This document shows positions 3 through 5,093 of a stretch of 42,639 nucleotides of DNA, one piece after another. Where the stretch lies: assembly GCA_944322685.1 (NCBI GenBank), contig CALUPP010000077.1:1-42639 (forward strand). Direction: 5' to 3'. The DNA is from Candidatus Gastranaerophilales bacterium. GTDB taxonomy: Bacteria; Cyanobacteriota; Vampirovibrionia; Gastranaerophilales; Gastranaerophilaceae. The notes beneath the pieces are model-generated. The model was not told where the DNA came from. It saw only the letters and a program-made list of their open reading frames with translations, and ran no database searches. A program made the translations under genes and the position numbers. Position 1 is the stretch's first letter, and each line of letters opens with the position of its first letter.

Positions 3-239
3 TATATAGGAGTTACAGGTAATTTACAAAAAAGAGTTTGGGAGCATAAAAATAAAGTAGTTGATGGTTTTACGAAAAAATATAATGTTGACAGATTGGT
101 ATATTATGAATTAACTGACTCTGTTGATGCAGCCCTAAATCGCGAAAAACAATTAAAGCGTTGGCATAGGGAGTGGAAGATAAACTTGATTAAGGAAATG
201 AATCCGGAATTTAAAGATTTATCTCTGGATTGGAAATAA
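3..239 (+). CDS. GIY-YIG superfamily endonuclease-like protein (5' truncated by window edge)
   Basis: The open frame enters at base 3 and ends at the TAA at 237-239. It begins YIGVTGNLQKRVWEHK, which is the YIG half of the GIY-YIG signature followed by the helix carrying the conserved Arg and His. A later RxxQLKRWHREWK stretch and a short Lys-rich tail follow, as in the small (about 85-100 aa) UPF0213-type single-domain GIY-YIG proteins. The GIY strand and start codon lie upstream of the window. The family fold is that of metal-dependent nucleases, but the cellular role of the stand-alone members is poorly known. Two palindromic repeat elements begin six bases after the stop. Family assignment is firm; specific function is not. 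Confidence 0.88.
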   Translation, partial: YIGVTGNLQKRVWEHKNKVVDGFTKKYNVDRLVYYELTDSVDAALNREKQLKRWHREWKINLIKEMNPEFKDLSLDWK

Positions 240-244
240 ATATT

Positions 245-424
245 GTTATTCTGAATTTATTTCAGAATCTTACCAGTTTATCGTCATAACATCTATTTGG
301 TAAGACCCTGAAACAAGTTCAGGGTGACAACAATATAAATGTCATCCCGAATTTATTTCGGGATCTTACCGGTTGTAAACAGAAGCTTCAAGTTGGTAAG
401 ATGCTGAAACAAGTTCAGCATGAC
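245..424. repeat. Two tandem 84-nt inverted-pair palindromic elements (REP/BIME-like)
   Basis: Four 30-nt units lie at 245-274 (forward), 299-328 (reverse), 341-370 (forward) and 395-424 (reverse). Forward units run GT(C/T)AT, palindrome, CTTACC; reverse units are their complement. Each unit holds a perfect hairpin: 249-267, 305-325, 344-364 and 401-421. Arms are 7-8 bp around a 5-nt loop (TTTAT in forward units, ACAAG in reverse units). Arm bases differ between units (TTC, CCC, TCC, TGC at the outer end) but always with the compensating change on the other arm. Both forward-reverse pairs have exactly 24 nt between units, and the two pairs are 12 nt apart. Each 84-nt pair could also fold as one long imperfect hairpin. 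Confidence 0.93.
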
Positions 425-541
425 AGCTAGCTGATTGTTTAAATACTTGGTAATTTCCTAAGGACAAAGAACTGTCCGGCTTTTTAAGTTCTTCAATAAG
501 TTATTTCTTGATAATTTTGCGCTTGTTCGTAAAAACTTTGT
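425..541. other. Gene-free spacer after the repeat array
   Basis: AT-rich sequence between the repeat array and the 3' end of the MFS transporter gene. I see no convincing hairpin terminator, promoter or gene in it. Confidence 0.5.
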
Positions 542-2086
542 TCAATATTTAACTTTTTTAAACAAAAATACAAACGGAACCAGCAAAAAAATAACGGCAG
601 CGTAAATTTTGAAACAATCCATGAACGCAAGCAAATTCGCTTGCTGCTGAAGCTGTGTGTAAACCATAAAATTTGCTTTTTCCTGAGCGACGAACTGACC
701 CGTGTGAACGGCGATTCCGCTTTGAATTGCGGCGAGTTTTTCGACAAAACCGGGGTTCGAATAGGTCAAATTTCTGACAAGATGCGTCTGATGAACCTGC
801 CCCATGCGCTGAATGAGCGTGGAAACGACAGAAGTCCCGATTGCACCGCCAACGCTTTTTGCTAGGTTGAAAATTCCCGATGCATTCGTCATCTGACTGT
901 TTTTGAGGGTTACAAATGTGATTGTCATCAACGGAATCATCAAAAGGCTGAATGCAAACCCGCAAATTACGTTGGGAAGAATAATTGAACCCATGCCGAT
1001 GTTTAAATTCATGGAACCGAACATTATGTTGGAAAACGCAAGCAAAAACATGCCCGCAATCACAACATATCGCTGATCAATCCTGTTTGAAAGCACCGCA
1101 ACCGCAACCAGTCCGGCAAGCGACCCGAAACCCCTTGGACTGATGGCAAGCCCGCTCAAAGTTGCGGTATAGCCCATTAAATGCTGCAAAAACAGCGGTA
1201 AAATTGCAAGGGTGGAGTATAAAACCGCGCCGACAACGGCATTTAGGGATGTTCCGACAATAAAATTGCGGTCAAGAAAGACTTTTAAATCAACAATGGG
1301 CGCTTTTGTGCTCAGCTCACGCCAGATAAACCCGATAAAACAGCTCAACGACAGCGCCGTTGTCCAGCGAACCCATCTTGAGCCGAACCAGTCGGATTTT
1401 TGACCGTTGTCGAGAACAATTTGCAGCGAAAACAGCCAAATAATAAGCAAAATAAAGCCTATGTAATCGACTTTTGGAATTTTGCCTTTTTTTGCGTAGG
1501 GCGGGTCTTCAATGAACAAATTTCCGAGAATAACGGCGATTATGCCCACGGGAACGTTGATTAGAAAAATCCAGTGCCACGAATATGTGTCGGTAATCCA
1601 TCCTCCGAGCGTCGGGCCGATAATCGGAGCAAAAATCACCCCGAAACCGAATACGGACATCGCCACGCCCCGTTCTTCAACGGGAAATTCTTCCATCATG
1701 ACCGCCTGCCCGATTGGCATAATCGCACCGCCGCCCAAACCTTGAATTACGCGTGCAAAAATCAACATCCCCATGCTCGTCGCAAGCCCGCAAAGCGCTG
1801 ATGAGGCGGTAAAAAGGATTGTGGAAAGCAAAAGAAAGTTTTTGCGTCCGAAAAGGGTCGAAAACCACGCTGTTGACGGGATTATCACGCCGTTTGCCAC
1901 AAGATAACTCGTCAAAACCCATGTGGATTCGTCCTGCGTTGCGGAAAAACTGCCTGCAATGTTCGGAAGCGCAACATTTGCAATCGATGAATCCAAAACA
2001 ACCATAAAAATCGTAAGCATTACCGCGCTTGCGCTGTACCACGGGTTTTTTGAGGGTTTCCAGGCTTCTTGGGCGGCTGCGGTCAT
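542..2086 (-). CDS. emrB: EmrB/QacA-type MFS drug efflux transporter (DHA2, 14 TM)
   Basis: Predicted 514-aa inner-membrane proton/drug antiporter of the 14-helix DHA2 family. The first helix carries the family motif around VVLDSSIANVALPNIAGSF (residues about 29-47). The helix 2-3 loop has a motif A-like WFSTLFGRKNFL (about 74-85). Helix after helix continues to the C-terminus, with an IFAPIIGPTLGGWITD stretch typical of motif C. The start overlaps the stop of the upstream membrane fusion protein gene by 4 nt (ATGA), so translation is coupled. It would pump hydrophobic drugs through EmrA and an outer-membrane TolC-like channel encoded divergently here. By eye this locus is somewhat richer in GC than its neighbours. 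Substrate cannot be told from sequence. Confidence 0.93.
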   Translation of the reverse strand: MTAAAQEAWKPSKNPWYSASAVMLTIFMVVLDSSIANVALPNIAGSFSATQDESTWVLTSYLVANGVIIPSTAWFSTLFGRKNFLLLSTILFTASSALCGLATSMGMLIFARVIQGLGGGAIMPIGQAVMMEEFPVEERGVAMSVFGFGVIFAPIIGPTLGGWITDTYSWHWIFLINVPVGIIAVILGNLFIEDPPYAKKGKIPKVDYIGFILLIIWLFSLQIVLDNGQKSDWFGSRWVRWTTALSLSCFIGFIWRELSTKAPIVDLKVFLDRNFIVGTSLNAVVGAVLYSTLAILPLFLQHLMGYTATLSGLAISPRGFGSLAGLVAVAVLSNRIDQRYVVIAGMFLLAFSNIMFGSMNLNIGMGSIILPNVICGFAFSLLMIPLMTITFVTLKNSQMTNASGIFNLAKSVGGAIGTSVVSTLIQRMGQVHQTHLVRNLTYSNPGFVEKLAAIQSGIAVHTGQFVAQEKANFMVYTQLQQQANLLAFMDCFKIYAAVIFLLVPFVFLFKKVKY

Positions 2087-3105
2087 TTTACAAATACCTT
2101 TGGAATCACGGACATGCCGGGCTCGATGTTGTATTTCGGGTCAATCGGCTCTGTAAAAACTATTTTCACCGGAACGCGCTGAACGACCTTGACATAGCTT
2201 CCTACGGCGTTTTCGGGCGGAAACATGCTCATTTTTGCGCCCGTGCTTGACTGAATTGAATCAACTTTGCCCTTGAATTTCACGCCGGGGTAGGCATCGA
2301 CCTTTATTTCGACGTTTTGGCCCGGTTTTATGTGCTCAAGCTGCGTTTCTTTGTAATTCGCCACGACCCAGCGCTTGTCCGGCACGAGCGAGAACATTGG
2401 CGAGCCCGTATGGATGTATGCGCCCTCTTCGGCAGAGCGGTTTGTGATTTTTCCGTCCTCCGTTGCGTAAATTTTTGTGTAAGAAAGGTCAAGTTTGGCC
2501 TGTTCCATGGCGGCTTTGAGCTTTTGGAGCTCGGCGTCGGCGACTTTGTTCTTTCTTTTTGAAAAAACGTTCTCCTGCGCGCCTGTGAGGCTTGCGCGTG
2601 CCTGTTCGTATTTTGAGCGGGCCCGGTCAAGCTCCTGCTGTGACACAGCGCCCTTTTTAAACAGCCCCTCGTACCTCTCTAAATCCTGTTTTGCAAGCTC
2701 AAGGTCAATATCTGCGGCATTTTCGGTTGCTTTTGCCGATTTTTGGCGGTAAAGCGCCATGTCGTAGGACGCTTTTGCCTGTTCGTAGCGCACTTTGAAG
2801 TCCCTGTCGTCGATTTCAATCAAAAGCGCGCCTTTTTTGACATGTTCGTTGTCGTCAATGTGTAGTTTTGAGATTATGCCGGAGATTTTCGGGCTCACGC
2901 GGATGATGTGCCCCTCAACAAACGCGTCGTCCGTCGAAACAAAGGAAGAAAAATACCGCCATCCGACCCAAAAAAGCGCTGCGGCAATGATTAGAAGCAA
3001 AAAAATGTATCTTTTTTTGAAAAATCTTTTTGTTTTAGCACGCTTACGCCCCCGTTTTTGCGGTTTTTCGCCGGATTTCGGGGTTGTGTTGTCTTCGTCT
3101 GCCAT
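2083..3105 (-). CDS. emrA: HlyD/EmrA-family membrane fusion protein
   Basis: Predicted 340-aa periplasmic adaptor linking the MFS pump to an outer-membrane channel. It has a basic cytoplasmic N-terminus rich in Lys and Arg (about 1-28), one membrane anchor (about 29-50, RYIFLLLIIAAALFWVGWRY), and a first half lipoyl-like domain (ISGIISKLHIDDNEHVKKG). A long coiled-coil hairpin follows (about 95-205), then the second lipoyl half and a beta-barrel domain (GAYIHTGSPMFSLVPDKRWV and beyond). Length is normal for EmrA. It lies 9 nt downstream of marR and overlaps emrB by 4 nt, so the three form one operon. Confidence 0.93.
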   Translation of the reverse strand: MADEDNTTPKSGEKPQKRGRKRAKTKRFFKKRYIFLLLIIAAALFWVGWRYFSSFVSTDDAFVEGHIIRVSPKISGIISKLHIDDNEHVKKGALLIEIDDRDFKVRYEQAKASYDMALYRQKSAKATENAADIDLELAKQDLERYEGLFKKGAVSQQELDRARSKYEQARASLTGAQENVFSKRKNKVADAELQKLKAAMEQAKLDLSYTKIYATEDGKITNRSAEEGAYIHTGSPMFSLVPDKRWVVANYKETQLEHIKPGQNVEIKVDAYPGVKFKGKVDSIQSSTGAKMSMFPPENAVGSYVKVVQRVPVKIVFTEPIDPKYNIEPGMSVIPKVFVK

Positions 3106-3114
3106 TTTTTGTCC

Positions 3115-3597
3115 TTATATCTGCTGGGAACAGGAATCCTCCAGATTATCCCTTATTTGCTTCAATACCGAACGGCAGATTTCCAAATCCTTATCAGAAA
3201 TGCTTTTTTGAATCCTATCCTGAAACTCCTGCTTAAAAGGCGCCATTAATTCTACTTTTTCAAGCCCCGGCGGAGTTATATGGATTTTTGAGATTCGTTT
3301 GTTTCCGGGGTCTTTTTCCCTTTTTACATAACCTTTCTTTTCAAGAATATCAAGCATTCTGGTAATATTCGGACGGTCTTTGTTCAGCAAAAAAGCAAGC
3401 TGCCTCTGGTATAATCCGTCTTGAACAGATAATACAAACAAAATGCCGAACTGTTCATAGGTTATGTCGGTTACTCCGACCGATTTTAAAAGTTTTGAGA
3501 CTGCTATCTTAATGTACGAGTCGGTCTGGGCAAGCTCGTAGCAAACATTGTCCGTTATTTGGCTAATTTCAATCGTTATGTCGTCTAATTGTTTCAA
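3115..3597 (-). CDS. MarR-family transcriptional regulator of the efflux operon
   Basis: A winged-helix MarR protein. The recognition region is LYQRQLAFLLNKDRPNITRM, followed by LDILEKKGYVKREKDPGNKR, which is the helix-wing signature with the conserved D-x-x-x-(K/R)-R wing. The frame is open up to an ATG at 3687, which would give 190 aa and overlap the divergent gene's start. I choose the TTG at 3597 (160 aa, nearer the family's 140-155 aa), because the upstream extension is low-complexity and crosses a palindromic operator-like site at 3633-3648. The true start is uncertain. It heads marR-emrA-emrB and probably represses this operon and the divergent tolC-like gene until a ligand binds. Confidence 0.82.
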   Translation of the reverse strand: MKQLDDITIEISQITDNVCYELAQTDSYIKIAVSKLLKSVGVTDITYEQFGILFVLSVQDGLYQRQLAFLLNKDRPNITRMLDILEKKGYVKREKDPGNKRISKIHITPPGLEKVELMAPFKQEFQDRIQKSISDKDLEICRSVLKQIRDNLEDSCSQQI

Positions 3598-3632
3598 TTT
3601 AAATTTACTATTATAAATATTAATATTCCAAC

Positions 3633-3648
3633 TGTTATAATGATAACA
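3633..3648. promoter_or_regulatory. Palindromic MarR-operator-like site overlapping a TATAAT box
   Basis: Perfect inverted repeat TGTTAT-AATG-ATAACA in the region between the divergent marR and tolC-like genes. Bases 3636-3641 read TATAAT on the plus strand, so a bound repressor would cover a likely -10 box for the tolC-like gene. A second TATAAT on the minus strand (3611-3616) could serve marR. No good -35 element is seen for either. Operator function is inferred from position and symmetry. Confidence 0.55.
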
Positions 3649-3686
3649 TTTTTCTGAAAATGTGGCAAGAAAGGCGTGCGTTAGCA

Positions 3687-5093
3687 ATGAAGACGGTCAG
3701 TAAGAGGTTTTTTGCTTGTTTTATTTGCGTTTTGCTTGCTTTTTTGCCCCTGTCCGGTTGCGCAAAGCCTCAAAAAATCAGCGCGGGCGTAAGTGATTAC
3801 CGGCTTGATTATGTAAATATCGACTGGTGGGGGAATTTCAGCGATCCATACATAAAAGAGTACGTTTTTAAAACCGTTTCCAACAATCATGACCTCAAAA
3901 TCGCGACGCTGAGGACAAAAGAATTTTATCAGAACATGAAAATTACTTTTGCAAAGGAATTGCCAACGGTAAATTTTCTGGCGAATTATGTGAGAATCCG
4001 AACGCCCGGTTTTGATTTTAACGGCCTGATTCTTGATAATACGAGCTCAAATATTTTCTCAATCCCTTTGATGGCGCAATATGAAGCGGATATTTTTCTC
4101 AAAAACCATGATAAAACAAAATCCGCAAAAAAGGAGCTCGAAGCCGTGCGTTTTCAGGAAAAAAGCTCCTATATTTCGCTTGCGGCAGCCGCCGGAACCG
4201 CATATATAAACATTTTGCGGCTTGATAAAACCATAAAACTCCAGGAAGAAATCGTAAAAGTGCGAAAACGGGTCTGGGAGCTGACAGAGGATAGATATAA
4301 ACTGGGCCTTGCATCGACTTTTGACACGACGGCACGCAATCAGCAGCACACTATGGCAATAGTTGTTCTGAATGACCTGAAAAAACAGCGTGCAGAGCTA
4401 TTGCATGAGCTTTCGGTGCTTATCGGCGAATCCCCGACATGTGCGGACGGGCTTGTGCGCGGGAATTTGGACGATTTCGAATACAAAAAAGAAATCCCCG
4501 CCGAAATCAGCTCAAAAATCGTTTTCAGCCGGCCGGATCTTATGGAAACAGAAGCAAAACTCCAAAAAGCCAAAATTGATATTCGCGTCGCAAGAAAAGA
4601 GTTCCTGCCGACGATTTCAATCGCAGGAATAGCCGGATTTACTGCGCTGGATTTGAGCAAACTTTTTGATTGGGATCAATTTCTTGCACTTGTCGCGGCA
4701 GGTGCCGTTCAGAAGCTTTTTACGGGTGGCAGGCTTGTTTCAGGGTTGAAAAAGCAAAAAATTCTTTATCAGGAGCTTTTTGAGGAGTACAAACAACGCG
4801 ATTTGCAGGCCATTCAGGAGATTAACGACAGCCTTTGTGCGATAAAATACGATACGAAGACGGACAAGGCGAACGAAGAAAAGGTAAAGCTCGAAAAATA
4901 CAACTACGGGCTGATAAATCTGCGTTACGAAAGCGGGATTACGTCGGATTTTGACCGGATTCAGTTCCTCGAAAACCTTATTGTGCTTGAAAAAGAAAAA
5001 GCGGATAGCAAAACGCGCAGGCTGATTGATTATTTGAGTTTGTACAAGGCTGCGGGCGGGGTTTTGGAAATTCCTGCCCAAAAATCGCCGTAA
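3687..5093 (+). CDS. TolC/NodT-family outer-membrane efflux lipoprotein
   Basis: Predicted 468-aa outer-membrane factor. From the ATG at 3687 the protein has a lipoprotein signal peptide ending in the lipobox LSGC (Cys25). An ATG at 3660 in the same frame would add nine charged residues in front of it, so it is less likely. The body has the two-fold repeat of helical hairpins and strands of the family: LRTKEFYQNMKITFAKELPT, then EEIVKVRKRVWELTEDRYKL for the first half; SRPDLMETEAKLQKAKIDIR and the TGGRLVSGLKKQKILYQELF region for the second. It is divergent from marR-emrA-emrB and supplies the missing outer-membrane part of a complete tripartite pump. Confidence 0.92.
   Translation: MKTVSKRFFACFICVLLAFLPLSGCAKPQKISAGVSDYRLDYVNIDWWGNFSDPYIKEYVFKTVSNNHDLKIATLRTKEFYQNMKITFAKELPTVNFLANYVRIRTPGFDFNGLILDNTSSNIFSIPLMAQYEADIFLKNHDKTKSAKKELEAVRFQEKSSYISLAAAAGTAYINILRLDKTIKLQEEIVKVRKRVWELTEDRYKLGLASTFDTTARNQQHTMAIVVLNDLKKQRAELLHELSVLIGESPTCADGLVRGNLDDFEYKKEIPAEISSKIVFSRPDLMETEAKLQKAKIDIRVARKEFLPTISIAGIAGFTALDLSKLFDWDQFLALVAAGAVQKLFTGGRLVSGLKKQKILYQELFEEYKQRDLQAIQEINDSLCAIKYDTKTDKANEEKVKLEKYNYGLINLRYESGITSDFDRIQFLENLIVLEKEKADSKTRRLIDYLSLYKAAGGVLEIPAQKSP

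Follow-up and report, generated by a model that had tools for sequence, protein, structure and literature searches.

A GIY-YIG gene fragment and two hairpin pairs at a contig edge

The analysed DNA, referred to here as the window, is the whole stretch of 42,639 nucleotides of contig C77 from a Candidatus Gastranaerophilales MAG (1.91 Mb, 117 contigs). At its left edge, the 3' part of a GIY-YIG nuclease gene is followed by four hairpin units, which are arranged in two pairs. The features are as follows:

3-239, forward strand: 3' part of a GIY-YIG nuclease ORF, 78 codons plus stop, start beyond the contig edge (PF01541, 4.1e-11)
245-274, forward strand: hairpin unit 1, tag GTTA, directly behind the GIY-YIG ORF
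299-328, reverse strand: hairpin unit 2, tag GTCA
341-370, forward strand: hairpin unit 3, tag GTCA
395-424, reverse strand: hairpin unit 4, tag GTCA
245-328, no strand assigned: pair 1, 84 nt, which matches at 81/84 positions the pair located after the GIY-YIG gene in two relatives (L092, L094)
341-424, no strand assigned: pair 2, 84 nt, readable as the left end (341-372) plus the right end (373-424) of a GIY-YIG element, the rest being deleted
425-506, no strand assigned: flank, common to contig C66, which starts within another copy of the ORF and continues with the same two pairs
542-2086, reverse strand: EmrB-like MFS transporter
2083-3105, reverse strand: membrane-fusion protein
3115-3687, reverse strand: MarR-like regulator
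3660-5093, forward strand: TolC-like outer-membrane factor

The last four genes were assigned from their translations and form an apparent efflux cluster (542-5093) adjoining the element.

Folding and abundance of the hairpin units

The preliminary description of this DNA had reported four 30-nt units of alternating orientation, forming two inverted 84-nt pairs with internal gaps of 24 nt, and exactly this arrangement was recovered at positions 245-424. The GIY-YIG ORF stops 5 nt upstream of unit 1. Each unit consists of a TGTCA tag (TGTTA in unit 1), a stem, a loop and a CTTACC tail, and all four contain a perfect 8-bp stem, counted from the A of the tag, and a loop of 5 nt. Folded as single-stranded DNA, each of the two 84-mers formed two hairpins joined by a tail stem (CTTACC/GGTAAG). 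The energies were -15.8 and -17.3 kcal/mol (z scores of -5.4 and -5.3), and none of 200 shuffled sequences was as good.

Pattern searches of the 1.9-Mb MAG yielded 114 matches to the unit with at most two mismatches, and none to the reversed pattern, which served as a control. Both strands were used equally (51 forward, 52 reverse), and two classes of tails were found, TCTTACC and TCGCAAG. At the 100 places among the matches listed that were used for pair spacing, tail-to-tail spans were 83 nt in 12 and 84 nt in 4 of 22 cases, and head-to-head spans were 59-60 nt in 16 of 20; therefore, arrays such as those on contig C34 consist of this 83-84 nt pair repeated in series. Many units lie close to a contig end, at a distance of at most a few hundred bases (C2, C11, C58, C64, C66, C77, C107, C110, C115). 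The repeats probably broke the assembly at these ends, so that the copy numbers are likely underestimates. At the start of contig C115 (L053, positions 40-95), a sequence similar to an Illumina adapter, ACCGAGATCTACACTCTTTCCCTACACG..GCTCTCCCGATCT, represents assembly contamination. A comparison with Rfam gave sub-threshold matches to miRNA hairpin families only, which were dismissed as chance for a palindrome.

The arms of the hairpins had been described as varying in sequence while remaining paired, and selection on folding had been suggested. Both claims gained support. For 38 distinct units, 94.4% of the cells were paired, and changes on both sides of the stem were found 37 times versus 13.6 times in shuffled sets (0/500 reached this value), with a search pattern that fixed some stem positions and left the three covarying pairs free to break. 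The signal was destroyed when the partner was slid. The first stem pair is A-T, and the second is T-A in 28/38 and C-G in 9/38 units. The idea would have failed if the units were absent elsewhere, randomly spaced or no longer paired, and the genome-wide search found none of the three.

REPs have roles as terminators, stabilisers or topology elements in other bacteria. The covarying stems, and the location of the window units in intergenic DNA downstream of genes, would also suit elements that the host retains for RNA or topology functions (terminators, mRNA stabilisers, BIME-type gyrase/IHF sites) and that have no mobility of their own. We consider this improbable, since the number of repeats ranges from 0 to 335 among the genomes of a single family, the strands are used equally, a U-tract is lacking behind the stem, and the linkage described below is specific to one gene family. 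The equal strand use and the element boundaries lead us to favour folding at the level of DNA rather than RNA.

The GIY-YIG protein

Full-length relatives of the window protein have about 96 amino acids, and most homologues are single-domain proteins of 94-112 amino acids. The closest relatives in named collections are encoded in Candidatus Gastranaerophilales MAGs. The predicted fold (model pLDDT 91.6) was nearest to UPF0213, Slx1 and UvrC, with 1zg2 among the matches, and the catalytic-type residues Y19, G21, R29, H33, E66 and N85 are invariant in the clade. The window protein family thus has the fold with the conserved Tyr, Arg and Glu that defines the GIY-YIG superfamily. The C-terminal NUMOD or other DNA-binding domain of an orthodox homing endonuclease is absent, as the protein comprises one short domain.

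The source genome contains two additional copies of the gene. The last codons of the second copy open contig C66 and are followed by the same two pairs as in the window, and the third copy, on contig C9, is 66% identical and has units of the other tail class nearby. No homologue was found in the phages that were searched.

Linkage of the GIY-YIG gene and the hairpins

The linkage was quantified for 98 GIY-YIG loci from the Gastranaerophilales family, Moraniibacteriota, Parcubacteria, Bacteroidetes and other groups. A hairpin unit was present within 300 nt at 85 loci and on both sides at 62, and 13 loci lacked the family hairpins according to the strict pattern. In the relatives, the ORF typically lies between hairpins with outward-pointing tags, and the spans are commonly 345-440 bp. 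The tag pointed outward in 52 of 73 nearest upstream and 46 of 74 nearest downstream units, so that the orientation was mixed in part, and at 27/65 loci a distance of 83-85 nt separated the upstream unit from the matched protein segment. At six loci (L149, L153, L160, L162, L165, L168), the ORF extends into the right hairpin, so that the protein ends in hairpin-encoded residues (DPETSSG and similar).

Two types of genes served as controls. Only 1-2 of 30 housekeeping GIY-YIG loci (YhbQ/UvrC) of the same family had hairpins nearby, and at loci of RAYT-type Y1_Tnp genes units within 500 nt were found in 2/31 cases, as one or two units at a distance of at least 272 nt. The source genome's own Y1 gene had no hairpin unit nearby.

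Among 60 family genomes, the GIY-YIG gene was present in 21, and its ORFs were mostly intact. The median number of repeats was 47 in genomes with the gene versus 4 in genomes lacking it (p 7e-6, uncorrected for phylogeny), and none of the 12 repeat-free genomes carried the gene. Four repeat-rich genomes (G003, G011, G013 and G041, with 53-126 repeats) had no copy of this gene in their assemblies; repeats of this type break assemblies, as happened at the start of the window, and this may have hidden the gene.

The Y1 genes also allowed us to evaluate whether Y1 tyrosine transposases (RAYTs) mobilise the repeats as they do GTAG REPs, with the GIY-YIG gene as a passenger. Y1_Tnp was present in 22 of the 60 genomes, and genomes lacking the GIY-YIG gene had more repeats when they contained it (median 15 versus 2, p 0.002), as expected for Y1-driven mobility. 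However, Y1 had no effect in genomes with the GIY-YIG gene (p 0.95), and the GIY-YIG gene did matter in Y1-negative genomes (p 1e-5); these three comparisons are likewise uncorrected for phylogeny. Together with the scarcity of units at Y1 loci and the absence of RAYT genes flanked by CGTC REPs in an earlier analysis (PMC3733652), this gives the Y1 explanation only a small probability. A link of RAYTs to the repeats was rejected on the basis of the 2/31 loci and of the tag, which is TGTC and not GTAG.

Loci with similar GIY-YIG proteins also had similar tails (Mantel r 0.64, p<=0.0005). Within a locus, the tails of the two sides agreed at 3.90/6 positions, versus 2.86/6 when they were swapped; both measures partly reflect shared ancestry.

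Element ends and gene-less pairs

The ends of the element could be defined by comparing copies. In one Moraniibacteriota genome, two copies (L132, L137) are alignable over 430 bp, the alignment ends exactly at TGTCATCC and GGATGACA, and the flanks are unrelated. For the C9 copy, several cross-genome alignments stop at base 1832 of locus L010, which is the outer base of a hairpin tag.

When pair 2 of the window was aligned with a complete element (L091), 30/32 positions agreed with the left end and 48/52 with the right end, and the right part of pair 2 continues past the stop codon into coding sequence, where it includes the last codons of the ORF. The alignment suggests that pair 2 is an internal-deletion, MITE-like derivative of the GIY-YIG element. 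The preliminary description had likened the 84-nt pair to BIMEs or small non-autonomous elements, and the reading as a BIME- or REPIN-like non-autonomous unit is strengthened by the composition of pair 2 from element ends and by the pair length, which is kept throughout the genome. That description did not include the putative autonomous partner, the GIY-YIG ORF that stops at 239, or the resemblance to CGTC-tagged REPs. A target-site duplication or a clean empty site could not be resolved because the flanks of the compared sites had diverged, and no empty site was found at dnaG, a site with a second GIY-YIG copy, because the gene order there is not conserved across genera.

Foreign segments were detected within some hairpins. 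At L093 (1735-1850) and L124 (1100-1410), a foreign repeat of about 55 nt ending in CTACAAA..TATTTACCCC is located in the hairpin loop, and on C66 (139-264, L047) a 42-nt foreign segment, CACTTCGTAAGGACAGGCTCACAC.., lies inside a hairpin. The hairpins may be hot spots of insertion or recombination. Such insertions, and the position of the gene between complete pairs at some loci (L133, L134 and in Azospirillum lipoferum), would also be expected if the gene were a free-standing nuclease gene of the homing type with REP hairpins as its insertion sites, while the REPs spread by other means. Several results argue against this possibility, which we regard as rather unlikely: the left unit is at a fixed distance of 83-85 nt at 27/65 loci, the tails match the protein type, the homology of paralogues begins and ends at the hairpin tags, and 3' sequence of the ORF is contained in pair 2. 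The protein also lacks the extra DNA-binding domains that homing GIY-YIG enzymes usually carry, according to a 2006 survey (PMC1564403).

A common downstream flank follows several copies (L091-L096, L106); it reads as an ORF 3' end (..NFLRYIKELIEELKKSDTVLLLERY..), of which window positions 425-540 hold a decayed remnant. The shared flank may be a preferred neighbour or a part of a larger duplicated segment. The fact that several loci adjoin the same neighbour-gene remnant, and that C66 and C77 have the same flank after the element, would also fit old, inactive remnants whose linkage stems from shared neighbourhoods and segmental duplication. This is very improbable in our judgement, because copies in one genome have unrelated flanks (L132/L137), the gene is distributed patchily (21/60 genomes), the ORFs are mostly intact, and the catalytic-type residues are invariant.

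Loci in named genomes

Outside of the family, 13 of 16 GIY-YIG loci in named genomes (Azospirillum, Sinorhizobium, Shinella, Aeromonas and Neisseria, where the hairpins are dRS3) lie between CGTC, TGTC or CCTC hairpins, and the hairpins near these genes number 41, whereas 0.14 would be expected from shuffled sequences. In Azospirillum lipoferum, sufB-sufC is interrupted by the gene together with two pairs, which relatives of about 96% identity lack. The Sphingobium plasmids TomTYG64 and TomTYG74 (L252 and L253, positions ~520-560) are gene-less and contain, at the site where others have the whole GIY-YIG element, a single chimeric CGTC hairpin composed of the outer arms. This looks like a scar of element loss, and the same hairpin could have arisen by slippage between short direct repeats. 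No polymorphic REPIN insertions were found in 100 kb of two Sphingobium plasmids.

Discussion

The explanation that we consider rather probable is that a minimal GIY-YIG mobile element has the TGTC hairpins as its two ends, that the 84-nt pairs are its non-autonomous copies, and that the nuclease recognises and cuts the hairpins, acting in trans on gene-less pairs. The element, commonly about 345-440 bp long, would consist of a TGTCA tag, hairpin and tail, a GIY-YIG gene of about 96 codons, and an inverted tail and hairpin. The nuclease would recognise hairpin and tail in single-stranded DNA or in an extruded cruciform, with the tail providing specificity, and would cut at or beside the GTC end. 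Host replication and repair would then copy the element, or a pair, into a new site. A gene-less pair keeps both ends and could thus be moved by the nuclease in trans. By analogy, Slx1-Slx4 processes branched DNA, which is consistent with the recognition of hairpins or cruciforms by a GIY-YIG protein. To our knowledge, no biochemical activity has been described for this GIY-YIG clade, which counts against the explanation, and we know of no GIY-YIG protein that acts as a stand-alone bacterial transposase. Further points against it are the lack of a target-site duplication or clean empty site at the compared sites, the four repeat-rich genomes with no copy of the gene in their assemblies, the 13 loci lacking the family hairpins under the strict pattern, the partly mixed orientation, the higher repeat numbers of Y1-positive genomes among those lacking the gene, and the use of family-level statistics uncorrected for phylogeny.

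CGTC REPs are widespread, and their original description did not settle how they are moved: a dedicated transposase was not found, and no RAYT gene was flanked by them (PMC3733652). A small and specific candidate nuclease is now at hand, and on the basis of its linkage to the hairpins we propose that the GIY-YIG protein is the missing enzyme of CGTC REPs, for which we infer cleavage and transposition. The chances appear evenly balanced that one unrecognised class of transposable elements, with a lone GIY-YIG structure-specific nuclease as transposase, has left the CGTC REPs of several phyla, including Neisseria dRS3, as its ends and internal-deletion remnants. If so, their spread would be driven by a catalytic type not known from stand-alone bacterial transposases. 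The preference of CGTC REPs for heterodimers, i.e. two different stems per pair, had no obvious explanation in 2013 (PMC3733652); it would follow from different stems at the two ends of the parent element.

Comparison with known systems

CGTC-tagged REPs were defined by Di Nocera 2013 by an unpaired CGTC tag at one end (often TGTC or CCTC), a stem of 8-9 bp, a loop of 4-5 nt and inverted dimers with a conserved spacer; AT residues occupy the first two stem positions almost invariably, the short unpaired tail is mostly CCA, and the superfamily also takes in Neisseria dRS3 and Rickettsia RPE-4 and RPE-6 (PMC3733652). The window units share the TGTCA tag (TGTTA in unit 1), the 8-bp stem and the 5-nt loop. 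They likewise form inverted dimers with conserved spacers, often heterodimers, without linkage to RAYTs, and most of the 38 units have the AT start of the stem. In contrast, the tail is CTTACC or CGCAAG and not CCA, which is found in alphaproteobacterial loci, the host belongs to the Gastranaerophilales, and a GIY-YIG gene is part of the element. On these features, the units fit the CGTC REP superfamily, as members with a TGTC tag, and not the GTAG REPs that are linked to RAYTs.

With the REPIN/RAYT system of GTAG REPs, the element shares a non-autonomous hairpin pair, one nuclease gene between the same hairpins, and the possibility of hundreds of copies. However, the tag is TGTC instead of GTAG, the nuclease is of the GIY-YIG type instead of an HUH Y1 tyrosine enzyme, and the Y1 genes of the genomes studied here are not flanked by units (2/31 loci within 500 nt). 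As in MITEs, both ends of the autonomous element are retained in pair 2 and the gene is deleted, but the ends are hairpins and not simple inverted repeats, and no target-site duplication was seen at the compared sites with their diverged flanks.

Small GIY-YIG nucleases (UPF0213/YhbQ, the UvrC N-domain, Slx1 and homing enzymes) have the same nuclease fold and conserved residues, whereas the protein described here is a single short domain without NUMOD or another extra domain and is encoded between hairpin repeats. Housekeeping GIY-YIG copies in related genomes are distinct in sequence from the element protein. The accessible part of the 2006 survey of GIY-YIG proteins reports no link to REPs (PMC1564403), and none was found in our literature search, the scope of which excluded bioRxiv and most subscription papers. 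The REP superfamily is therefore known, and the specific nuclease gene as a part of the element is new.
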